Source: Rhizorhapis suberifaciens | GTDB taxonomy: Bacteria; Pseudomonadota; Alphaproteobacteria; Sphingomonadales; Sphingomonadaceae | Length of the DNA stretch: 64,000 nucleotides | Assembly: GCF_014200045.1 (NCBI RefSeq) | Contig: NZ_JACHOV010000009.1 | Span: 1-64,000 of the forward strand | Direction: 5' to 3' | In this document: positions 48,399 to 64,000 of the stretch, piece after piece | Numbering within the stretch: position 1 is the stretch's first letter | Layout: every line of letters begins with the position of its first letter | Translations under genes and position numbers: made by a program | The notes under the pieces: generated by a model | The model's database searches: none | Seen by the model: only the letters and a program-made list of their open reading frames with translations | Told to the model about the DNA's origin: nothing

Positions 48399-49271
48399 AT
48401 GTTGAACGCCCTTTCCGTGGATGTCGAAGACTGGTTCCAGGTAGGCGCTTTCGAGCGTACGATTCTGCGCGACGCATGGGATCGCCTGCCATGCCGGGTG
48501 GAGCGGAATTGCGATGCGGTGCTGGCGCTGTTCGACGAAGCCAGCGTCAAGGCCACTTTCTTCATTCTGGGTTGGATAGCGGAGCGCTATCCGGCACTCA
48601 TCCGGCGTGTTGCCGAAGCTGGGCATGAGATTGCTAATCATGGATATGACCATCAGCGCGTCTTCACCTTCACTCCCGACGCATTCAGGCAGGATCTGAA
48701 AAAATCTCGTCAACTGATTGAAGATGCTTCGGGTCAAGGTGTGACGGGCTATCGTGCGCCGAGCTTTTCCATCGATGCACGGACGCCTTGGGCGCACGTC
48801 GTGCTGGCGGAGGAAGGCTATGCCTATTCCAGCAGCGTCGCGGCGGTGAGGCATGACCATTATGGCTGGCCGGATGCACCGCGTTTTGCCTTTTTTCCAG
48901 TCACCGGGAGCGGTCTGGTAGAACTGCCTGTAACTACGGCCCGGCTCGGTGGGCGAATTTTGGCGGCCGGGGGCGGAGGGTTTTTCCGGCTGCTGCCCTA
49001 TGGCTTTTCGAAATGGGCGATCCGGCAGGTTAATGGTGAAGGTCGCCCTGCGATCATCTATTTTCATCCCTGGGAAATTGACGACACACAGCCACGCGTG
49101 GCTAATGCGCCATTGCGGTCGAAGCTTCGACATTACAGTAGGCTGTCGGCGATGGCTGCCAAGCTTCGCAAACTAGCCGGCGACTTTCATTGGACGCGGA
49201 TTGATGGACTGTTGGAGCAGGAGCGGGCACACGCCATTCCTTTTTCAGCCCCCTCGTCAAAGGCCGCCTGA
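48399..49271 (+). CDS. XrtA-associated polysaccharide deacetylase
   Basis: A 290-residue NodB-type deacetylase (pepcterm_polyde, TIGR03006) with DUF3473 at its end. The metal Asp is in ALSVDVEDWFQVGAFE, the zinc His pair is in HEIANHGYDHQRV, and YRAPSFSID is the third motif. It would remove N-acetyl groups from the exported polymer. Its stop overlaps the next gene (TGATG). Confidence 0.94.
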   Translation: MLNALSVDVEDWFQVGAFERTILRDAWDRLPCRVERNCDAVLALFDEASVKATFFILGWIAERYPALIRRVAEAGHEIANHGYDHQRVFTFTPDAFRQDLKKSRQLIEDASGQGVTGYRAPSFSIDARTPWAHVVLAEEGYAYSSSVAAVRHDHYGWPDAPRFAFFPVTGSGLVELPVTTARLGGRILAAGGGGFFRLLPYGFSKWAIRQVNGEGRPAIIYFHPWEIDDTQPRVANAPLRSKLRHYSRLSAMAAKLRKLAGDFHWTRIDGLLEQERAHAIPFSAPSSKAA

Positions 49272-50344
49272 TGAACGCTCCGTTCGGTCCATCGGTCCTC
49301 ACAGTAATGCCTGCCGACCTGAAAGACGCAGCCATTGTGGCGGAACTGGAAAGCTTCGTGCGGGACCATCCAGACTCCACACCGTTTCATCGCCCTGCTT
49401 GGGTAAAGGCGGTTGCGGCGGGAACAGGCCAGACGCCCCATTATCTGGTGGCGCGCGACCTCACCGGAGGGGTCAAGGGCGTCCTGCCGCTGACGGAGGT
49501 CCGTTCGCGGCTGTTTGGTCGCGCTCTGGTGTCCAGCGGATTTGCTGTAGGCGGCGGTGCGCTGGCCCACGATCCGACGGAAGTCGACAAACTAGCCCAA
49601 GCGGCTTGGGTGCTGGCGCAAGACCTTGGCTGCACCACGGCGGAACTGCGCGGCGGGGCAGCGCCAAGCCAGGCCTGGACAACGAAAGGCGATGCCTATT
49701 TGGGCTTTCGCAAGGCGCTGGAAGCGGATGATGATGCGCAGTTACAAGCCATCCCCCGCAAACACAGAGCGGAGCTTCGCAAGGGGCTCGCCAACAAGCT
49801 TCAGTTCGAAGTGGGACGAGACCAACGATTCCGCGATGCACATTACGCCTTGTTCGCGCGCAGCGTGCATAATCTGGGCACGCCGGTGTTTCCCCGCAGT
49901 TTGTTCGAAGCCGTGCTCGACGATTTTGGGCAGGACGCCGATATTGTCCTGGTATCGCACCAGGGCGTTCCCGTTTCGTCAATCCTGAGCCTCTACCACG
50001 GGAACGCCTGCATGCCCTATTGGCAAGGGTCGTCGCCAGCGGCGCGGCAGCTTCGGTCCAACGAGGTCGCATATTTTCGGCTTATGAACTTGGCTCGCGA
50101 GCGGGGCTATAGCTACTTTGACTTCGGCCGCTCAAAGGTCGGAACCGGCCCGGCAGCATGGAAGAAAAGCTGGGGCTGGGAACCAGAGGCGCTAAGCTAT
50201 CATTGGCGCGCGATTGAAGGGCATGAGATGCGCGACGTTAACCCGCTAAGCCCTCAGTATCGGCGGAAGATCATGCTTTGGAAAAAGCTGCCGCTTTCGC
50301 TGGCGAACCGCATTGGCCCCTATATCGCGCGAGGGCTGGGATGA
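49271..50344 (+). CDS. FemAB-family XrtA/PEP-CTERM-associated protein
   Basis: A 357-residue GNAT-type protein with two lobes (pepcterm_femAB, TIGR03019). The HRPAWVKAVAAGTGQTPHYL segment and the C-terminal YFDFGRSKVGTGPAAWKKSWGW signature are diagnostic. FemAB proteins transfer aminoacyl groups; in this system the acceptor is unknown. It overlaps the deacetylase by one base and the glycosyltransferase by four. Confidence 0.93.
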   Translation: MNAPFGPSVLTVMPADLKDAAIVAELESFVRDHPDSTPFHRPAWVKAVAAGTGQTPHYLVARDLTGGVKGVLPLTEVRSRLFGRALVSSGFAVGGGALAHDPTEVDKLAQAAWVLAQDLGCTTAELRGGAAPSQAWTTKGDAYLGFRKALEADDDAQLQAIPRKHRAELRKGLANKLQFEVGRDQRFRDAHYALFARSVHNLGTPVFPRSLFEAVLDDFGQDADIVLVSHQGVPVSSILSLYHGNACMPYWQGSSPAARQLRSNEVAYFRLMNLARERGYSYFDFGRSKVGTGPAAWKKSWGWEPEALSYHWRAIEGHEMRDVNPLSPQYRRKIMLWKKLPLSLANRIGPYIARGLG

Positions 50345-51585
50345 TCGGAGAGATACTCTTCATCGCGCATCGCATTCCATTTCCTCCCGACCGAGGCGAC
50401 AAGATCCGGTCGTGGAACATCGTGAAGCGGCTGGCGCAAATCGCCCCGGTTCACATTGCCGCCTTTGCCGATGATGCAGAGGACATGGCGCATGCAGACG
50501 AGCTTGCGAAGGTCGCGGCGAGCTGCAGGATCATCCTGCGCAACAGGGGGCGTGCGGCAGCGGCGTTGCGCGGCCTGTGGGGTGGTCGTCCTCTTTCCGT
50601 GGAGCTGTTCGATTACGCGAAAATGCACGATTACGTCACAGAATTGCTGATGGAGCGCCCGATAGGGGCTGTGTTCGCCTATTCCAGCCAAGCTGCCCAA
50701 TATGTGCCAAAGCTGCCGCCTTCTGCCCGTTTCATCATGGACTTCGTGGACGTCGATTCGGAAAAATATGCGGCTTATGGGCAGGCGCAGAGCGGTCCTA
50801 TGGCTTGGATCAACCGGCGTGAAGGGCGGAAGCTTCTCGCATTTGAACAGCAGGTAGCCGCCCGGGCGAACATGAGCCTGCTCGTGAGCGAGGCGGAGGC
50901 GAAGCTGTTCCGTGACCTTACGGGGCTCGGTCTAAATTCTATCAAGGCGCTCGAAAATGGCGTGGATCTTGATTATTTCAGCCCGGACGCCGTCTTTGAC
51001 GCCCTAACTGTGGAGCAGCGCGGGTCGGGGCCGTTGTTCGTCTTTACCGGACAAATGGACTATCGCCCGAACATAGAGGCCGTGGATGGGTTCGCCCGGA
51101 GCAGTTTCGTTCACATCCGCGAGCATTACCCCGAGGCGCGTTTCGTCATTGTAGGGCGTAATCCGACAGTAGCGGTCAAAGGGCTTGCTTCCTTGCCTGG
51201 AGTGCAGGTGACAGGCGCGGTCAGTGACGTTCGGGGATGGCTTTCCGCCGCCGATATAGTGGTCGCGCCGCTCCGTTTGGCGCGGGGCGTACAAAACAAG
51301 GTTCTTGAAGCAATGGCGATGGCCCGGCCCGTGATCGCTTCTTCACAGGCCGCTGAGGGCATCAATGCAACGGCCGGGGTCCACCTCATGGTGGCCAAGT
51401 GCGGCGCCGATGAGGTGGCAATGGCAATAAAGCTCCTGAATGATCGTCAGGCGGCGGCCCGAATGGGCAGAGCGGCGCGCCAGCAAATGGAAGAGCGCTA
51501 TAGCTGGGACGCGACACTGGCCGAACTGCCCGCGATAGTTACCGGGGCGCACCAGCCTGTTGCAGAACGCGTGCAGGTCGCATGA
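50341..51585 (+). CDS. XrtA-associated glycosyltransferase (TIGR03087 family)
   Basis: A 414-residue GT-B glycosyltransferase (stp1 family). The N-terminal ILFIAHRIPFPPDRGDKIRSWN is diagnostic, and the C-terminal sugar-nucleotide half has GRNPTVAVKGLASLPGVQVTG and the PLRLARGVQNKVLEAMAMARPVI region. It adds a sugar to the lipid-linked repeat unit. It overlaps xrtA by four bases. It is the only clear glycosyltransferase in the locus. Confidence 0.93.
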   Translation: MIGEILFIAHRIPFPPDRGDKIRSWNIVKRLAQIAPVHIAAFADDAEDMAHADELAKVAASCRIILRNRGRAAAALRGLWGGRPLSVELFDYAKMHDYVTELLMERPIGAVFAYSSQAAQYVPKLPPSARFIMDFVDVDSEKYAAYGQAQSGPMAWINRREGRKLLAFEQQVAARANMSLLVSEAEAKLFRDLTGLGLNSIKALENGVDLDYFSPDAVFDALTVEQRGSGPLFVFTGQMDYRPNIEAVDGFARSSFVHIREHYPEARFVIVGRNPTVAVKGLASLPGVQVTGAVSDVRGWLSAADIVVAPLRLARGVQNKVLEAMAMARPVIASSQAAEGINATAGVHLMVAKCGADEVAMAIKLLNDRQAAARMGRAARQQMEERYSWDATLAELPAIVTGAHQPVAERVQVA

Positions 51586-53111
51586 CGTCGATTGCTCCGC
51601 CTGCTCCCCTGGCTCGGTTCTGGGGCGGCAATTGGTCTCGACACCTCGCGCTGCTCGGCCTCGCATGGGCTGCTTGCCTTGCGGTCTACTATCAAGACGC
51701 TGCTGGAATGGTATCGATCTGGTGGAACGCTTCGACATTCGGTCATTGCTTGCTCATTCCTTTCATCATCGGTTGGATGGTGCATCAGCGGATGATCGAA
51801 CTACGGTCGTTGAACCCCGTCGCGTGGTGGCCCGGCCTCATCTGGGTGGCGGTTGGCGGGTTGTCCTGGCTTATGGGTGACGCGGCCAGCTTGGCGCTGG
51901 CGCGCCATGTGGGTCTGGTCGTGATGCTGCAGGGTGCGTTGATAACGGCGCTGGGACCCCGGATTTCACGTGCATTGGCATTCCCGCTATTCTACGCTTT
52001 CTTCCTGGTCCCCTTTGGCGAGGAGCTTGTTCCTGCGCTGCAAACCGTCACGGCCCACATCTCCATGGCCTTTCTGGACTTGTCGGGGGTGCCTGCCCAT
52101 TTGAACGGCGTCTTCATCACAACCCCCACCGGCTATTTCGAGGTGGCGGAGGCTTGCTCCGGGGCCAAGTTCCTGATCGCCATGGCGGCCTATGCGGTGC
52201 TGGTCTGCAATATATGCTTCAAAAGCTGGCCGCGGCGGGCGGTGTTCTTGCTGATGTCGCTATCAATAGCGGTAATGGCCAATGGCATCCGGGCGTTCGG
52301 CACCATCTATGTGGCGCATCGCACCAGTTCCGATTTTGCGGTCGGGTTCGATCATGTGATCTATGGCTGGGTTTTTTTTGCGGTAATTCTGGCGCTTGTG
52401 ATGGCGGCAGGCTGGCCGCTTTTCGATCGCAGGGCGGATGAGGCGGCTGTCAATGTCGAGGATCTGAGAGGCGAGGTGCGTCAGACTGCTCGACTATCCA
52501 CCATTCTGCCGCTTTTGCTGGCCCTTATCGCCATTCCGCCACTTTGGTCGGCGGCCATTGCGGCGACTTCGGACACAGTTCCGGCCCGTATAGCACTGCC
52601 CCAAGTGCCGGGCTGGACCGTCGTGGACTATCAGCCCTCCTATCCTTGGAAGCCGCGCTTTGCGGGTGCCAATCATCAATTGCTCGGCCGTTATCGTGAT
52701 CGGCAGGGTCGGGAGGCTGACCTGGCGATAGCTGTCTATGCGCGGCAGGAGGAAGGGCGCGAGCTGGTGGGATTTGGTCAGGGCGCGGTCGATCCCGAGA
52801 GCAAATGGGCCTGGTCGTCCTTCATCGAAGCGCCGCGCGGGGGGGCAGGGGATCGCATTGTCGCCCCTGGCCCAGTGACTCGGGATGTCGTGAGCTTTTA
52901 CGATGTGGGCGGGGTAACGACCGGCAGCGCCGCGGATGTGAAGCTGTTTGGCTTGAAAAACCGGATTATTGGCGGAGATCAAAGGGCGGTGGCGGTGCTG
53001 GTATCCGCCGAAGATCGAGAGGGGTATCCCGCCGACGCAGCCATTGCCGCGTTTCTGGATGATTTGGGACCGATCAGCCGCCTTGCCGATCGCAGCGCCG
53101 GAAGAAAATAA
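51582..53111 (+). CDS. xrtA: exosortase A fused to an EpsI domain
   Basis: A 509-residue fusion. Residues 1-290 are exosortase A (TIGR03109): eight hydrophobic segments and the catalytic triad Cys192 (EACSGA), Arg237 (NGIRAFG) and His258 (FDHVIYG). It should cut PEP-CTERM signals and pass the proteins on to the surface. Residues from about 300 are an EpsI-type domain (TIGR02914) in the periplasm. Both parts look complete. It overlaps the glycosyltransferase by four bases. Confidence 0.96.
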   Translation: MTSIAPPAPLARFWGGNWSRHLALLGLAWAACLAVYYQDAAGMVSIWWNASTFGHCLLIPFIIGWMVHQRMIELRSLNPVAWWPGLIWVAVGGLSWLMGDAASLALARHVGLVVMLQGALITALGPRISRALAFPLFYAFFLVPFGEELVPALQTVTAHISMAFLDLSGVPAHLNGVFITTPTGYFEVAEACSGAKFLIAMAAYAVLVCNICFKSWPRRAVFLLMSLSIAVMANGIRAFGTIYVAHRTSSDFAVGFDHVIYGWVFFAVILALVMAAGWPLFDRRADEAAVNVEDLRGEVRQTARLSTILPLLLALIAIPPLWSAAIAATSDTVPARIALPQVPGWTVVDYQPSYPWKPRFAGANHQLLGRYRDRQGREADLAIAVYARQEEGRELVGFGQGAVDPESKWAWSSFIEAPRGGAGDRIVAPGPVTRDVVSFYDVGGVTTGSAADVKLFGLKNRIIGGDQRAVAVLVSAEDREGYPADAAIAAFLDDLGPISRLADRSAGRK

Positions 53112-53128
53112 ACATTTTTAGCCATTTA

Positions 53129-53152
53129 GAGGTAAAGCCGGTTTCTTACCTC
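53129..53152 (+). promoter_or_regulatory. hairpin between xrtA and the amidotransferase gene
   Basis: GAGGTAA, a ten-base loop, TTACCTC: a seven-pair stem 17 bases after the xrtA stop. There is no T-run. It may tune read-through or translation of the amidotransferase gene, which has only a weak ribosome site. Confidence 0.35.
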
Positions 53153-53178
53153 CGCAATTGCGCATAGAGCCTGTTCGC

Positions 53179-55074
53179 ATGTGCGGAATAGCGGGCATTT
53201 TTCACCTTGAAACGGCCAAGCCGGTGGACCCGGCCAGGGTGCGGTTGATGACCGATACCATGGTTCATAGGGGCCCCGACGGATCGGGCGTTTGGACCGC
53301 CCACGGCGTTGGCCTGGGTCATCGTCGCCTGTCGATCATTGATCTGGGCGGCGGCGCGCAACCGATGCTGACCGATGACGGAGCGCTTGCGGTAACCTTC
53401 AATGGCGAAATATATAATTTCGCTGCGGTTCGCGACGAATTGCAGGCCAAGGGCCATGTGTTCCGCACGCACAGCGACACCGAAGTCATTCTGCATGGCT
53501 GGCGGCAATGGGGAACGGAATGCGTTCGCCATTTCGACGGCATGTTTGCCTTTGGTCTGTTTGACGCGCGGGAGCAGTCGCTCTGGTTGGCGCGCGATCG
53601 GCTGGGCGTGAAGCCCCTCCATTACACGACACTCTCAGACGGCAGCTTGATCTTCGCATCAGAGTTGAAGGGACTGCTGGCTCATCCCCTCCTGCGCAAG
53701 GAGCCGGACATTCGAGCAGTCGAGGACTTTCTGGGCCTGGGCTATGTTCCGGACGACGCTTCTATCGTAAAAGGTGTGCGAAAGCTTGGCGCGGGGGAGA
53801 CGCTGTTGCTCCAGCGCGGGCGGCCGGTGCCGCAACCCGTCCGCTATTGGGACGTGAACTTCGCTGACCGGACCAACGCCAAGCCTGCAACACTTGAAGA
53901 AGAGCTGATATCCTTGATGCAGCAGGCCGTTCGCTCTCGTATGGTGGCGGACGTGCCGTTAGGCGCGTTTCTTTCGGGCGGCGTCGACAGCAGTTCTGTC
54001 GTGGCGCTCATGGCCGAGGTCAGCAAACGCGCTGTGAAGACCTGCACCATCGGCTTCGATGTCGATGACTTGGACGAAAGCGGCTATGCGGAGCGGATCG
54101 CCAAGCGCTTTGCCACGGATCACCGAAAGCGTATCGTATCGCCAGACGATTATGCGCTCATCGACACGCTGGCGCGCCATTTTGATGAGCCCTTCGCGGA
54201 TGCTTCGGCCTTGCCAACCTACCGGGTGTGCCAATTGGCGCGGGAAACGGTGACGGTGGCGCTGTCGGGCGATGGCGCAGACGAAGCTTTTTCCGGATAT
54301 CGCCGGCACCGGTTTCAGCATGCCGAAGAGCGGCTGCGACGGCTAGTGCCTCAGTCTATACGAGGACCTCTGTTCGGATCGCTTGGGCGTATCTATCCCA
54401 AGGCCGATTGGGCGCCGCGCCCTTTGCGAGCAAAGACAACCTTGTTGAACTTCGCCCAAAACGGGGCGGAAGCTTATGCAGCATCCGTGGGCGTGACGGG
54501 GCAATCGATGCGGCATCGTTTGTTCACGGAAGACGCTCGAACCGCGCTTCAGGGTCACAGGGCGGAGGACCGATATATTCGCGCGATGCGGGATGCCCCG
54601 GCACGCGAGGCGCTGGACCGGGCCCAATATGCTGACCTGAAAATATGGCTTCCGGGCGACATTCTTACCAAGACCGACCGGATGAGCATGGCGGTTGGTC
54701 TTGAAGCGCGCGAGCCGCTGCTCGATCATCGCCTGGTGGAGTTTGCTGCACGGCTTCCCGTGTCTATGCGACTGCGCCGGCAAGAGGGCAAATATTTGCT
54801 CAAAAAGGCGATGGAAGCCTATTTGCCGACAGACATTTTATACCGTCCGAAGATGGGGTTTGTGACACCGATCAGCAACTGGTTCCGCGGACCGTTGGCG
54901 CATGAAGCCTCGGCGATTGCGGGAGGCTCGGCTCTGGCGCGGACCGGCTGGTTGGATCGCAACGTCATGGCGACCGCCGCTGCGGAGCATAGGAGCGGAC
55001 TTGCCGATCATGGCCGCCTGCTTTGGCAGTTGGTGATGCTGGACCGCTCGTTAAAAGGATTGTTCAGCCTCTGA
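53179..55074 (+). CDS. XrtA/PEP-CTERM-associated amidotransferase (asparagine synthase type)
   Basis: A 631-residue protein of the eps_aminotran_1 family (TIGR03108). The class II glutaminase nucleophile is Cys2 (MCGIAGIF), which requires the ATG at 53179 and processing of Met1. The synthetase domain has the PP-loop SGGVDSSSV at about 266-274. It likely amidates a sugar acid or peptide of the exported material using glutamine and ATP. It closes the rightward XrtA arm. Confidence 0.95.
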   Translation: MCGIAGIFHLETAKPVDPARVRLMTDTMVHRGPDGSGVWTAHGVGLGHRRLSIIDLGGGAQPMLTDDGALAVTFNGEIYNFAAVRDELQAKGHVFRTHSDTEVILHGWRQWGTECVRHFDGMFAFGLFDAREQSLWLARDRLGVKPLHYTTLSDGSLIFASELKGLLAHPLLRKEPDIRAVEDFLGLGYVPDDASIVKGVRKLGAGETLLLQRGRPVPQPVRYWDVNFADRTNAKPATLEEELISLMQQAVRSRMVADVPLGAFLSGGVDSSSVVALMAEVSKRAVKTCTIGFDVDDLDESGYAERIAKRFATDHRKRIVSPDDYALIDTLARHFDEPFADASALPTYRVCQLARETVTVALSGDGADEAFSGYRRHRFQHAEERLRRLVPQSIRGPLFGSLGRIYPKADWAPRPLRAKTTLLNFAQNGAEAYAASVGVTGQSMRHRLFTEDARTALQGHRAEDRYIRAMRDAPAREALDRAQYADLKIWLPGDILTKTDRMSMAVGLEAREPLLDHRLVEFAARLPVSMRLRRQEGKYLLKKAMEAYLPTDILYRPKMGFVTPISNWFRGPLAHEASAIAGGSALARTGWLDRNVMATAAAEHRSGLADHGRLLWQLVMLDRSLKGLFSL

Positions 55075-57571: not shown

Positions 57572-58567
57572 TCAGGAAAAGGCCTTTGAGATCGAGCAGG
57601 CTGCAGGCCCCAAAATCACAACGAAGAGCACCGGCAGAATGAACAGGATCAGCGGCACGGTCATGATGGCTGGCAAGCGTGCCGCCTTTTCCTCCGCACG
57701 CATCATGCGTTCGTTGCGGAATTCGGCCGAAAGCACGCGGAGAGCCGAGGCTAGCGGCGTGCCGTATTTTTCGGTCTGGATCATGGTCGTAACCACGCCC
57801 TTCACTGCATCGAGCTTTACTCTGGTCGCGAGATTTTCAAATGCCTGCCGCCGCTCTGTGAGGAAGCTCAGCTCAATCGCGGTCAGGGTGAATTCGTCAC
57901 CCAATTCCGGATAGGCCTTGCCCAGTTCCTTTGCGACGCGGTTGAACGCTGCGTCGACGGTCAAGCCGGCTTCGGCGCAAATGACAAGAAGGTCGAGGGC
58001 GTCAGGCAAGCCCTTGCGGATGGCGGCGGAGCGCTTTGAAACCTTGTTGTCAATGAACAGATCAGGCGCTTTGTAGCTCAGAATCAATATGGTTGCGAAA
58101 GCGCCGAACTTCTTGAAGGTGGTCCAATCCGGAAAGAAATCGACCCCATAAATCAACAGGGCAGCGGTGCCGCCAAAAAAGATGGGTAGGACCATGCGTC
58201 CGAAAATAATGGCAATGGCCCAATCCTTGGACCGGATGCCGGCCTGGGCCAGTTTGACCTGAGCCTCCTTCAACTGGTCGTCCTGCAACACCTTCAGATT
58301 TTGCAGGAATGACCGCATGGTGTCGGTGGTCTGGTTCTTCTTGACGAGCTTTGCGCGGCGGCGCGCGGTTGAAGCGGTAATGCCAGCCTTCAACTGTTCA
58401 CGCCGCTCGTTGAGCGACTTGACCCGCCGTGCCATGGGATCGCGCACCGTGGACGCTGCATAGATGGCGACAAGGACCGCAAAGGTCGCCAGGGCGGCAA
58501 GGATCGTACCGACGTCAGTGCCGGTCAGACCCATGATCGTGGTCCCGGGGGGAGGGGTGGCTTGCAT
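57572..58567 (-). CDS. tadC: Tad pilus inner-membrane platform protein TadC
   Basis: A 331-residue type II secretion F-domain protein, with four hydrophobic segments; the first is near residues 14-40 and the last near the end (PLILFILPVLFVVILG). The cytoplasmic F domain (FNRVAKELGKAYPELGDEF, LERRQAFENLATRV) is present. With TadB it forms the platform for the Flp pilus. It is the last gene of the operon, 15 bases after tadB. Confidence 0.92.
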   Translation of the reverse strand: MQATPPPGTTIMGLTGTDVGTILAALATFAVLVAIYAASTVRDPMARRVKSLNERREQLKAGITASTARRRAKLVKKNQTTDTMRSFLQNLKVLQDDQLKEAQVKLAQAGIRSKDWAIAIIFGRMVLPIFFGGTAALLIYGVDFFPDWTTFKKFGAFATILILSYKAPDLFIDNKVSKRSAAIRKGLPDALDLLVICAEAGLTVDAAFNRVAKELGKAYPELGDEFTLTAIELSFLTERRQAFENLATRVKLDAVKGVVTTMIQTEKYGTPLASALRVLSAEFRNERMMRAEEKAARLPAIMTVPLILFILPVLFVVILGPAACSISKAFS

Positions 58568-58582: not shown

Positions 58583-59578
58583 TCAGATCTCGAAATTGAT
58601 CATCTGCGCCATGATAAAGGCACCTATCGACATCCACATCAGGCCGCCAAGGCCGATGATCTGCATCAGACCGAGGCCGAACAACCCCAGGGGATCCCCT
58701 GTGAAGAAGGGAGCCATATAGTCGTAGTTTATGTAGCAGATCAGCCCGAAGACAATGAAAGGCAGAGCGCCGATAATGTAAGCGGAGGCCTTCGACTCCG
58801 AAGACATCGCCTTGATCTTCAGCTTCATCTGCGCCCGCTTGCGCAACACATCCGCCAGGTTAGAGAGCGTTTCGGCCAAGTTACCGCCAGTTTCGCGCTG
58901 GATAGCGAGAGAGATCACGAAAAACTGGAACTCCGGCGTGCCAAGGCGGTCGGCTGTCTCCTGAAGTGCTGCATCCATCGTTCGGCCGATCTTGATCCGC
59001 TCCGTGATCATCCTGAATTCTTCACCCACAGGTCCAGGAAGCTCATTGGCGACGACCCCCAGCGTTTCGGAAATAGGCAGGCCGGAACGGAGGCCACGGA
59101 CGAGCAATTCCAGGGCGTCTGGAAAATTGACCGTGAACTTCATGGTCCGCTTGCCGATGAGATGACCCACAGCCATGTGTGGAAGTCCGAGGCCCGCAAA
59201 AAGGCCGAGGAAGATCGCCAGCAGCGGTGCCCACCCTCGCAGTAGCAGGAGCAACATGACAACCGCCGCAATGCCTGCGCTCGCGCTTGCATATTGTGTC
59301 AGGGTCCAGCTTTTGCCTGTCATCTTGATCCGCTTATGCAGCGTTTCTGGATTGGGGATCAGCGACGTCAGCAGCCCGTCTGTTTTGGGCATGTTGGATA
59401 TTGCCCTGCGCATCTGTGCTTCGACAAAGGCCGTTCCTGACTCGCTGTGACGAATCCGCACAACCTCCAGCCGACGGACTTGCGCTTTCGAAGCCGATGG
59501 CCCTGAAAACGCTAGAACGAGCAACGAAAGAATGCTCGTCAACGCCGCTATCAACAGGATGAATTGCACATTCGACAT
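58583..59578 (-). CDS. tadB: Tad pilus inner-membrane platform protein TadB
   Basis: A 331-residue partner of TadC. N-terminal membrane segment MSNVQFILLIAALTSILSLL, middle segments near residues 95-130 and the F domain (RTMDAALQETADRLGTPEFQFF, REGGNLAETLSNLADVLRKR-type sequence). It lies directly after cpaE, where cpaF would be expected. Confidence 0.92.
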   Translation of the reverse strand: MSNVQFILLIAALTSILSLLVLAFSGPSASKAQVRRLEVVRIRHSESGTAFVEAQMRRAISNMPKTDGLLTSLIPNPETLHKRIKMTGKSWTLTQYASASAGIAAVVMLLLLLRGWAPLLAIFLGLFAGLGLPHMAVGHLIGKRTMKFTVNFPDALELLVRGLRSGLPISETLGVVANELPGPVGEEFRMITERIKIGRTMDAALQETADRLGTPEFQFFVISLAIQRETGGNLAETLSNLADVLRKRAQMKLKIKAMSSESKASAYIIGALPFIVFGLICYINYDYMAPFFTGDPLGLFGLGLMQIIGLGGLMWMSIGAFIMAQMINFEI

Positions 59579-59619
59579 GCTCAGGTCCCGCTATTTTCCG
59601 GTCGTAGGGCCACTATAGT

Positions 59620-60897
59620 TCACTTCTTCTTTGTCTTGGCGGGAATGATCGATTTGAGATCTGTGATCCTGCCTAGAAGCGACTTTCCGCTCTTTTCAGA
59701 AGCCGTGGGCGCGCTGGTCTCGTCGATCGAGTCCAGCGCCAACGCCATGACGCTTTCCAAAGCATGGCCGACCTTCGATGCCTTGGCGATTTCGGCCAGC
59801 GTCTTGCCGAGTTTTGCCGCCTGCGCGGCCAGCTTGGGGTCGGCCGGGATCAATATATCGATTTTGCGCTCGATCGACTGTTCGAAATCCTTGCGGCTGA
59901 TTTCCAGCGCGGTTGCGTGCACGCGATTGGCGACGACAATCACGCGGGTGCCGGGGGCGTTGGATTTCAACCAGGACAGGATGCGGATTGCGTCCCTGGC
60001 AGCCGCAAGAGTCAATTCCGTCACCACGATTGTCGCGTTCACGTCGTTGATAAGATGCGGATATTGGATCAGCATGTTGCGCGGCAGGTCGATGACGCTG
60101 CATTCGAAGGCGCCACGGAATTCCTCCTGAAGCTGGAAGAATGCCGCGCCGTCGGTCAACATCGGCTGACTGATTGGCGCTTCTGCTGAAAGGATGGCCA
60201 GTTTCTCGCTGGCCTTCACCATTGCCCGCTCGATGAACAGTCCGTCGATGCGGCTGGGATTTTCAATGGCGTCGGTAAGACCGCGTCCGGGCTCAAGATC
60301 CATGGCAAGCGCCCCGGTGCCGAAATGGACGTCCAGGTCCAAAAGGCCTGTCAGGCGATCCGCCTTTCCACTGAGCAGCCACGCAAGCGAAGTGGCGATG
60401 CTCGAAGCGCCGACACCGCCCCGTACGCCGATCACGGCAGTGGTGAGATGCGGACGTTCATTCGAGACGTCAACGATCTTGGGTGCATTGAAAACCGCCT
60501 GTGCCTGCGCAAAGGCTTCGCGAAGCTGGTCCGGGCCAAAGGGCTTCAGCAGATAATCTTGCAGCCCGCTGGCCACGAGGTCGCGGTAAAGGCGTACGTC
60601 GTTAACCTGACCAGCAGCGATAACCACCGTCCCTGGCTCGCACACTTCGGCAAGCCCGTTAATGTCGTTGAGCGGGTCACCCGATTCCGACATATCCACG
60701 AACAGGATGTTCGGGCTGGCCGACACGGAAAGCGACTGAACCGCGTTTCGCAGCCCGCCCTTGTGCACCTTTTCGGGCGGCCATCCCATTTCGACACAAA
60801 CGCTGCGGACAAGGTCGAAGCTGGCGTCGTCACACACAAAGGCGCTGAACGCATCACGCAATGCCGCCGTGCCGCCGGGTCTCCAGGGAGCGTTCAT
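59620..60897 (-). CDS. cpaE: Tad pilus assembly ATPase CpaE/TadZ
   Basis: A 425-residue MinD/ParA-related protein. A receiver-like N-terminal domain (FVDMSESGDPLNDINGLAE, QDYLLKPFG) comes before a deviant Walker A (GVRGGVGASSIATSLAW) and the LLDLDVHFGTGALAMDLEP motif. TadZ marks the pole where the pilus is built. It overlaps cpaD by one base (TGATG). A short gap of 41 bases separates it from tadB. Confidence 0.92.
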   Translation of the reverse strand: MNAPWRPGGTAALRDAFSAFVCDDASFDLVRSVCVEMGWPPEKVHKGGLRNAVQSLSVSASPNILFVDMSESGDPLNDINGLAEVCEPGTVVIAAGQVNDVRLYRDLVASGLQDYLLKPFGPDQLREAFAQAQAVFNAPKIVDVSNERPHLTTAVIGVRGGVGASSIATSLAWLLSGKADRLTGLLDLDVHFGTGALAMDLEPGRGLTDAIENPSRIDGLFIERAMVKASEKLAILSAEAPISQPMLTDGAAFFQLQEEFRGAFECSVIDLPRNMLIQYPHLINDVNATIVVTELTLAAARDAIRILSWLKSNAPGTRVIVVANRVHATALEISRKDFEQSIERKIDILIPADPKLAAQAAKLGKTLAEIAKASKVGHALESVMALALDSIDETSAPTASEKSGKSLLGRITDLKSIIPAKTKKK

Positions 60898-61541
60898 CAG
60901 TTGCTTCCTCCTGTCAGAGTCTTCAGATCGCCAGCGCCGGTGCTGGCTTTGTCCTGATAGGTCTTGATAGCCTTGGTCGCGGCAGTGGGTGCGCGACTGA
61001 TCGCGCCGGGTTGACCCAGCACCAGATCCTGGGGGTTGGCGATCATGGCCGCCAGATTGCCGTTGGTAGCGCAGCCATAATTGCTGGACGTTCCGCCGAT
61101 AAGGTCGCCTTCCTGCGTGCTGCGCCAGTCGGGGCAGCCAGGGACGCTTGCCGTCGAACGGCTGACAATGACACGGATCGCGCCGCCCGGCACTGAACCG
61201 GCGGTGGCTGGGGCCGTGTCGCTCAACAGCAGGCCGTAATTGCCCAGCAACTGGGACACGCTAGCCCTGGCTGCGGTGCTGCTCTCACCATCGATGGAAA
61301 CGCGATCGCCATAGGTCAGATCGATTGAAGTGAACCAGCCGTCCAGCCGTTCCCGCTCGCTTGCAGGCAAGTCGCCGCCAGGGGTGGGGTAGACGTCGAA
61401 CACATAATCGGAGCGGCTGACCACCGGTTGATGGACCGAATCCATGCCGCGATTGATGGGCGCCTGACATGCTGCCATCGGTAAAATGAATACCGCCAGG
61501 AGGGGCAGGGCCGCAGCCCGCTTTAGGAGAGGCTTGTACAT
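60897..61541 (-). CDS. cpaD: Tad pilus lipoprotein CpaD
   Basis: A 214-residue outer-membrane lipoprotein; lipobox LPMAAC with Cys25. The CpaD-type segments YGCATNGNLAAMIANPQDLVLG and RADAAT-like TAATKAIKTY are present. It serves the secretin as a pilotin-like partner. I chose the ATG at 61541 (GGAAGG ahead); the longer frame starts at 61559, overlapping the cpaC stop. Confidence 0.92.
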   Translation of the reverse strand: MYKPLLKRAAALPLLAVFILPMAACQAPINRGMDSVHQPVVSRSDYVFDVYPTPGGDLPASERERLDGWFTSIDLTYGDRVSIDGESSTAARASVSQLLGNYGLLLSDTAPATAGSVPGGAIRVIVSRSTASVPGCPDWRSTQEGDLIGGTSSNYGCATNGNLAAMIANPQDLVLGQPGAISRAPTAATKAIKTYQDKASTGAGDLKTLTGGSN

Positions 61542-61558
61542 CAAAAAGGTCCTTCCCA

Positions 61559-63058
61559 TCAGAAACTGAAGCCGGGCGAAACTTTGCCGGTGTCTGCGGT
61601 TTGCTTGCGGCGTTCGCTTGCAACGGCGGCGGGCGGGGCCGATCCGACTTGTGGAGCGGCCGGAGCAACAGGTTCGACCGTCGGTTCAGGACGCTTTGCG
61701 CCGCTGACCCCGTCGCTTTGCTTTTGAAGCAGCAGGCCCTGCAAATCCGTTGCGTTGCGGAAGCCGTCGGTCGGCAAGCGTATGTCCTGCGCGTTCACGG
61801 GCTTCACCAGATAAGGCGTGACCACAATCACCAGTTCGGTTTCATTCCGCTGGAATTTTTTGGACTTGAACAGGCTACCCAGGATGGGAATGTTGCCCAG
61901 CCCCGGAACCTTGTCGACATTATTGGCCGTGCTGTTGTTCAGCAGTCCGGCAATCATGAAGCTTTGGCCTGAACCCAGTTCCACTGTAGTTTCCGCCGAC
62001 CGGCTCTTGAGCGCGGGGACGTTGGAGTTGATGGAAAAATCCAGTTCCGACACCGTTGGCCGGACGCGCATCGATATGCGGCCGTCAGACAGGACGGTGG
62101 GCGTGAAGGCAAGCTGCACGCCATATTGCTTGAATTCGATCGTATTGCCCTGAAGGCCGTTCGAAACCGAATAAGGATATTCACCGCCCGCCAGGAAGCT
62201 GGCGGTTTCGCCCGAAAGCGAAGTCAGGTTGGGCTGCGCCAGTGTGGTGGCGAGACCAGTGGTTTCGGCAAGATCAAGCGCGCCCGCGATGTCCATGCCG
62301 AGCAGGCGCGCGACGCCGCCAATGGAGGTGGTGCCATCGGTGGGGTTGGTGAATGTCCAAACATTGCTATCCGCGTCGAAACTTGCAAAATTGCGCGTGC
62401 CCGAGCCAATATTGCCCAGCACCTTGCCGCCGCTGCTATCGGCGCTCATGAAGTTCGTGCCGATCTTATGCGCGAAGCTGCGGCTTACTTCGGAAATCTT
62501 GACCTGGAGGTTGACCTGCAACGGTGTGGCCGTGCGAAGGCGGCTGACGACCTGCACATCCTTGCCGACGAAAGCCTGCACCAGACGTTCGGCTTCGGCT
62601 GCGTCCTCGGGCGCCTTGACCGTGCCAGTCAGAAGAACGAGGCCGTTCATCGTGCTTACCTGGATGTTGGCTTCCGGCATGGCGAGGCCAAGCATCTGAT
62701 CCACGCTGGACAGGTTGTTGCCAACCCGGACCGTACCCGAATAGAGGATCTTGCCGGTCTTGCTGGTGACGAACAGGTTGGTTTCACCCGGCGCTTTGGC
62801 AATAAGGTAGAGCTGCTTTTCCGAGCGAACGTGAATGTCCAAGACTTCGGGATTGGCGATCACCACGTCCGACATCGGAGCGGATAGGTTCACCACCCGG
62901 CTGCCGCCGACAGAGAGCACCAGAGCGTCCTGACCGATACTCGCCCGCGTCTGGGCGGAGGCGAGTTGCACCGGCGTTCCCTGCCCGGAGGCGAAGGCCA
63001 GAGTGGCGACCAGTGCGGTTCCGCTGACGCGGCCAATTTTGGTCTTCATGACATTCAT
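61559..63058 (-). CDS. cpaC: Tad pilus secretin CpaC/RcpA
   Basis: A 499-residue outer-membrane secretin with a signal peptide (about residues 1-35), a BON-like/N-terminal domain (VNLSAPMSDVVIANPEVLDIHVRSE), and the secretin domain ending near VVTPYLVKPV. It forms the pore through which the Flp pilus leaves the cell. GGAGGG stands ahead of the ATG. It follows cpaB directly. Confidence 0.95.
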   Translation of the reverse strand: MNVMKTKIGRVSGTALVATLAFASGQGTPVQLASAQTRASIGQDALVLSVGGSRVVNLSAPMSDVVIANPEVLDIHVRSEKQLYLIAKAPGETNLFVTSKTGKILYSGTVRVGNNLSSVDQMLGLAMPEANIQVSTMNGLVLLTGTVKAPEDAAEAERLVQAFVGKDVQVVSRLRTATPLQVNLQVKISEVSRSFAHKIGTNFMSADSSGGKVLGNIGSGTRNFASFDADSNVWTFTNPTDGTTSIGGVARLLGMDIAGALDLAETTGLATTLAQPNLTSLSGETASFLAGGEYPYSVSNGLQGNTIEFKQYGVQLAFTPTVLSDGRISMRVRPTVSELDFSINSNVPALKSRSAETTVELGSGQSFMIAGLLNNSTANNVDKVPGLGNIPILGSLFKSKKFQRNETELVIVVTPYLVKPVNAQDIRLPTDGFRNATDLQGLLLQKQSDGVSGAKRPEPTVEPVAPAAPQVGSAPPAAVASERRKQTADTGKVSPGFSF

Positions 63059-63059
63059 C

Positions 63060-64000
63060 TTATTTCCCTCCGACCGGAACCACAGTGACTGCGGTTCCGC
63101 GTGCGACGCGAACGACGGGACCGGCGACGGCCATCATGCCTGTGGCATCGCTTGTTGCAGTACCGCCGCTACCCTCGGCGGACTTGCCTGGGACCGAGCG
63201 GCGCTGGAAGCGTGACACGTCGGCGCCGGTTGCGAAGGTGGACCCCTTGTCGACGGGGCGGCTGGCGACTGCCAGCATCATACGCTTTTCAGCAGCGGGG
63301 TCGTCGCCTTCGGGGACATCTACATCGCCAGCGGCTATGGCCTGCTCCAGTTCAGCCGCATTGTCCGCGATCGAACGAAGCGACAGGGAAAGCGAACCAA
63401 TGGTTTGCGCGACTGCAATCTTTTCGGCGATTTTAGGGGTCACTTCCAGCGTCACGTTGGAGTAGGTGACGACCTGCTGCTTGCCATCCTCACCCACAGC
63501 GTTGGTACGCTGATCGGTAGCGAGCACACGCAGGTTGCGCATGATGGTTTCGGAGACCTTGAGAGGTTCGCCATCGCCGCCGCCTGCGACCGTCTGCGTC
63601 AGCACCAGGTCGACCCTGTCACCGGGAAAGACGAAACCCGCCACGGAGCTTTGGGCGGAGACTGGAACCGTAACGGCGCGCATGCCAGGGCCAAGCGCTG
63701 CCGCAAGGAAGCCGCGGTCGCCGGGCTTTACGAGCGATCCCTGCGTTACAGGCTGACCGGCCGTAATCGCATTGCGGACGACCGTTCCAGTAAGCGTCGC
63801 CGGATCGGCCTCGCCTTTCAAGAAATAGACCTGCTCGACCAACTCCTTCGGCCACGGCTGGAAGCGGAAGCTGTCCGGTTCAATGATCGTGCCTACAGGC
63901 AGCGCTCGGGTTGCGACCAATACTTGCGGGCCATCCAGAGCAGGCTGCATGTTAGCGGCGGTCGCCTGAGGCGCGCCGGAATTGCCCAGCAAGCTCCGAG
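63060..64000 (-). CDS. cpaB: Tad pilus assembly protein CpaB/RcpC, 5' end cut by the window
   Basis: At least 310 residues in frame, running off the right edge. The SAF domain (LVATRALPVGTIIEPDSFRFQPWP) and RcpC-type domain (AVTVPVSAQSSVAGFVFPGDRVDLVL) are seen; the N-terminal membrane segment must be outside. It stabilises the secretin or modifies the pilus in the periplasm. It is the most upstream Tad gene here; the pilin and cpaA, if present, lie beyond. Confidence 0.93.
   Translation of the reverse strand, partial: RSLLGNSGAPQATAANMQPALDGPQVLVATRALPVGTIIEPDSFRFQPWPKELVEQVYFLKGEADPATLTGTVVRNAITAGQPVTQGSLVKPGDRGFLAAALGPGMRAVTVPVSAQSSVAGFVFPGDRVDLVLTQTVAGGGDGEPLKVSETIMRNLRVLATDQRTNAVGEDGKQQVVTYSNVTLEVTPKIAEKIAVAQTIGSLSLSLRSIADNAAELEQAIAAGDVDVPEGDDPAAEKRMMLAVASRPVDKGSTFATGADVSRFQRRSVPGKSAEGSGGTATSDATGMMAVAGPVVRVARGTAVTVVPVGGK

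Follow-up and report, generated by a model that had tools for sequence, protein, structure and literature searches.

How is a Tad pilus powered when the gene for its motor is missing from the operon that encodes much of its machinery? This question is raised by the last several kilobases of the window (that is, the entire stretch of 64,000 nucleotides analyzed here, from contig C9 of Rhizorhapis suberifaciens), where the components CpaB, the secretin CpaC, CpaD, CpaE, TadB and TadC of a Tad/Flp (type IVc) system are encoded together on the minus strand, in the order cpaB-cpaC-cpaD-cpaE-tadB-tadC. The Tad pilus has been described as having a single bifunctional motor, CpaF (PMC12019362), the gene for which usually lies between cpaE and tadB, although this order is not essential to a Tad system. 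A preliminary description of this DNA had pointed out that cpaE is followed after 41 bases by tadB, with no cpaF in between--an observation that is exact, given that cpaE ends at 59620 and tadB starts at 59578--and had proposed that cpaF may be elsewhere or, alternatively, that a loss of the gene may have left the pilus motorless.

Apart from this gap, the operon is well defined. Starting at the window's end, cpaB (63060..63998, minus strand; PF16976 and TIGR03177) is cut by the window boundary, the whole gene extending to C9:64067, and is preceded outside the window by cpaA (C9:64118-64591). It is followed, likewise on the minus strand, by the secretin gene cpaC (61559..63058; PF00263, E = 1.2e-43, and PF13629); by the lipoprotein gene cpaD (60897..61559; PF09476, E = 3.3e-38); by cpaE/tadZ (59620..60897), the product of which is assigned as a MinD-like ATPase based on MinD/Ssd-type ATPase models, position and orthologues; and by the genes of two T2SSF-domain platform proteins, tadB (58583..59578; PF00482, E = 2e-27, with orthologues in 131 genomes of the family) and tadC (57572..58567; PF00482, E = 1.6e-19). 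The operon as a whole is thus cpaABCDE-tadBC, and all of its genes are intact. The 41-bp junction (59579..59619, minus strand) occupies the site where cpaF is found in other families; examination of the sequence and a profile search revealed no cpaF remnant within or beside it. Nor does cpaF adjoin the operon beyond the window, as the preliminary description had left possible: upstream there is no cpaF, and past cpaA there are only unrelated genes.

The genome itself (3.36 Mb, 100% complete; a draft in 34 contigs) was searched for T2SSE ATPases, as the preliminary description had suggested. This identified one GspE-like protein, four VirB11/TrbB-like proteins and two proteins of the CpaF type, where the GspE-like and VirB11/TrbB-like labels reflect a reading of scores and lengths. 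(The four VirB11/TrbB-like matches, on contigs C12, C13 and C14 (L004-L007), suggest the presence of several conjugative elements.) One of the CpaF-type proteins, 504 residues long, is encoded by an intact gene that stands alone on contig C1 (C1:25748-27262), flanked on one side by a methyltransferase gene and on the other by a glycosyltransferase gene, about 2 kb beyond ftsZ. Its closest solved structure is that of Caulobacter CpaF (9e24; E = 6.6e-140), and the eight residues assigned to catalysis or to the arginine fingers in the Caulobacter protein are kept in 60 of the 60 CpaFs compared, the standalone protein included: namely, the Walker A lysine and threonine, the Asp box glutamate, the Walker B glutamate, the arginine fingers and the equivalent of D215. 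A dN/dS ratio of about 0.04, relative to the nearest genome, indicates that this protein is under strong constraint. Hence, a TadA/CpaF motor ATPase is present within the genome, and the first of the two suggestions noted above--that cpaF may be elsewhere--is borne out.

Other parts of the system are dispersed as well: Flp pilins are encoded at C20:10957-11377, and a tadG-E1-E2 cluster, which supplies minor pilins of the TadE type, is located near C1:331-334 kb. The second CpaF-type protein (456 residues) belongs to another Tad locus, a complete operon of a different lineage (C5:47-61 kb; L100) with its own Flp, CpaB, CpaC, TadE, TadF, CpaE, CpaF, TadB, TadC, TadD and CpaA. Unlike the window operon, this locus is compact and has retained cpaF between its cpaE and tadB.

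The generality of this arrangement was explored using 197 genomes of the order (each at least 90% complete), 136 of which come from the window's own family, the Sphingomonadaceae as delimited in GTDB. CpaE and TadB of the window type occur in 131 of these 136 genomes; standalone CpaF occurs in every one of the 131 and in none of the five that lack them. Across the family the standalone protein is 80-92% identical in nearly all genomes and 74% identical in G068. The distance from cpaE to tadB, taken between matched stretches, is 26-248 bp (median 102 bp) in 130 of the 131 tad-bearing genomes; the sole exception is, again, G068, which harbors cpaF within a cpaE-tadB interval of 1.8 kb. Among the named records are Sphingobium, Sphingopyxis, Novosphingobium, Altererythrobacter, Qipengyuania, Parerythrobacter and Tsuneonella. 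The layout without cpaF is, in other words, ordinary for the family. Thus the expectation, stated in the preliminary description, that cpaF lies between cpaE and tadB in almost all tad operons holds for the other Sphingomonadales families examined, which have homologous CpaE, TadB and TadC, but fails for the window's own family.

No tad genes flank the standalone gene at 101 loci (up to about 10 kb on each side), and its only recurrent neighbors at the loci compared are atpD, an EamA transporter gene and a methyltransferase gene. A conserved linkage to the ftsZ/dcw cluster was considered and ruled out, inasmuch as ftsZ occurs nearby only in the R. suberifaciens genome among the loci compared. 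In one genome with a joined cpaE and tadB, the standalone cpaF is split over two reading frames (G115:C1:1624108-1625617; L229) by an apparent frameshift, which either stems from an error in sequencing or marks the gene as a recent pseudogene.

These patterns bear directly upon the possible explanations for the missing gene. That cpaF disappeared from the cpaE-tadB interval through misassembly might be imagined for a draft genome in 34 contigs, but is effectively excluded because the same join recurs in 130 of 131 independently assembled genomes of the family. That the pilus has no motor, and thus is non-functional or decaying, is what an operon lacking cpaF would suggest when viewed by itself; yet an intact and strongly conserved CpaF co-occurs strictly with that operon, the genes of which are all intact and which nearly the entire family has kept, so that loss of the motor, the other suggestion made in the preliminary description, is extremely unlikely. 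A different source of power could in principle be the CpaF of the complete C5 operon, inasmuch as it is available in the same genome. Proteins of that type, however, show 48-49% identity, and this one is encoded inside an operon of its own; moreover, in about 89 of the 131 family genomes that have a window-type operon, standalone CpaF is the sole CpaF (at E ≤ 1e-100), and in Sphingopyxis granuli cpaF shares its regulation with the split operon (PMC6472365). It is therefore highly unlikely that the C5 motor drives the window pilus.

There remains the question of whether the standalone gene is simply the operon's own cpaF, relocated. The absence of cpaF from the operon and its presence elsewhere are just what relocation predicts, but this, too, is very unlikely. 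Within the window's family, cpaF is present in G068 and G006 twice, once inside the operon and once standing alone, and G216 and G217 each have two CpaFs, one of each type; where both persist, the two are about 47-53% identical to each other. In a CpaF tree, for which the C5 protein served as an outgroup, all of the standalone proteins and second copies form one clade (UFBoot/SH-aLRT = 100/99, with long branches for some second copies) apart from in-operon CpaF, and constraining the family's standalone CpaFs to join its in-operon CpaFs is rejected (p-AU = 2.5e-59). Given this rejection and the early-branching relatives with both copies, a standalone paralog most likely assumed the role of motor once the in-operon gene had been deleted.

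A tree of CpaE and TadB places the operons without cpaF in a single clade (SH-aLRT = 100) nested among operons with cpaF. In other families a second cpaF, with no adjoining tad gene, is found in G025, G035, G037, G042, G043, G045, G047 and G076. (In G029 a second cpaF, at C2:16328-17589 (L261), is broken by a stop codon and a frame change; the in-operon cpaF is intact elsewhere.) Two genomes, G013 and G023, have the in-operon copy only, a pattern that would be reciprocal loss, in assemblies that are 91% and 67% complete, respectively. G215, by contrast with the other three genomes of its genus, all of which have both copies, has standalone CpaF only; 0.8 Mb of its sequence, when sampled, yielded no tad operon, and this genome may represent a second, independent loss of the in-operon gene. 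The simplest history, then, would begin with an old duplication of cpaF, leading to a period with two motors, one encoded within the operon and one standing alone, and ending with a single deletion of the in-operon gene in an ancestor of the family's core, after which the standalone paralog would have taken over.

Based on gene content, positions, conservation, co-occurrence, phylogeny and catalytic residues, the window operon is very probably part of a split, likely working Tad (type IVc) pilus, the motor of which is an older, standalone paralog that became the sole motor upon deletion of the in-operon gene. Both the strict co-occurrence and the co-repression of a split gene set in S. granuli (see below) point to standalone CpaF as, most likely, the motor of the window pilus. 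In such a system, cpaABCDE-tadBC would supply the envelope machine; cpaF at C1:25748-27262, the hexameric ATPase; contig C20, the pilins; and the tadG-E1-E2 cluster at C1:331 kb, the minor pilins. By homology to its Caulobacter counterpart, standalone CpaF would dock on TadB and TadC encoded within the window and drive both extension and retraction. It belongs to the same CpaF class as the motor of the Caulobacter crescentus Tad/Flp (type IVc) pilus, with an N-terminal extension and all catalytic and arginine-finger residues (PMC11300603, PMC12019362), but differs from it in that its gene lies outside the operon and its sequence falls within the standalone clade. The in-operon CpaFs of other families have a longer N-terminal part, with about 135-180 residues before the core, as compared to about 75-155 for the standalone proteins.

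The split itself is already in print. An expression table for S. granuli TFA includes cpaABCDEtadBC (genes 1907-1901), an Flp pilin (3632), tadGE1E2 (0765-0767) and, at a location of its own, cpaF (3775), all of which are repressed in anoxia (PMC6472365). This is the same split as in the R. suberifaciens genome, where the S. granuli cpaF is matched by its table entry rather than by alignment. That paper, the only one found on cpaF in sphingomonads after PMC7987155 proved irrelevant, is silent on the absence of cpaF from the operon and on the origin of the separate gene as a paralog; nor was a description found, among open-licence papers, of a motor replaced by a standalone paralog with intermediates having both motors. 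The paralog origin thus seems undescribed.

A family-wide exchange of the motor for a diverged paralog implies that Tad platform and motor can be re-paired, and natural genomes with both motors, with the in-operon motor only or with the standalone motor only offer material for exploring which CpaF surfaces set TadB/TadC specificity. It also serves as a warning for annotation: operon-based detection of Tad systems will label such systems as motorless. More speculatively, several early-branching Sphingomonadales with one window-type apparatus and two intact CpaFs might possess a two-motor pilus, its motors sharing the work or taking turns at it, and the family's core would later have dropped one of the two--a conceivable, though rather doubtful, scenario.

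Two further clusters lie near the window operon, one to each side. A few genes from cpaA, at about 67-77 kb of contig C9 (L098:4475-14432), is a chemosensory cluster which, as read from its sequence, encodes a globin-coupled-sensor-like protein, CheA, CheR, CheB, CheW and CheY-like proteins. On the other side of the operon, window positions 49271-55074 resemble an exosortase-associated exopolysaccharide locus, with genes which, again as read from the sequence alone, are for a GNAT-like protein, a glycosyltransferase, an exosortase-like membrane protein and an asparagine-synthase-like amidotransferase.
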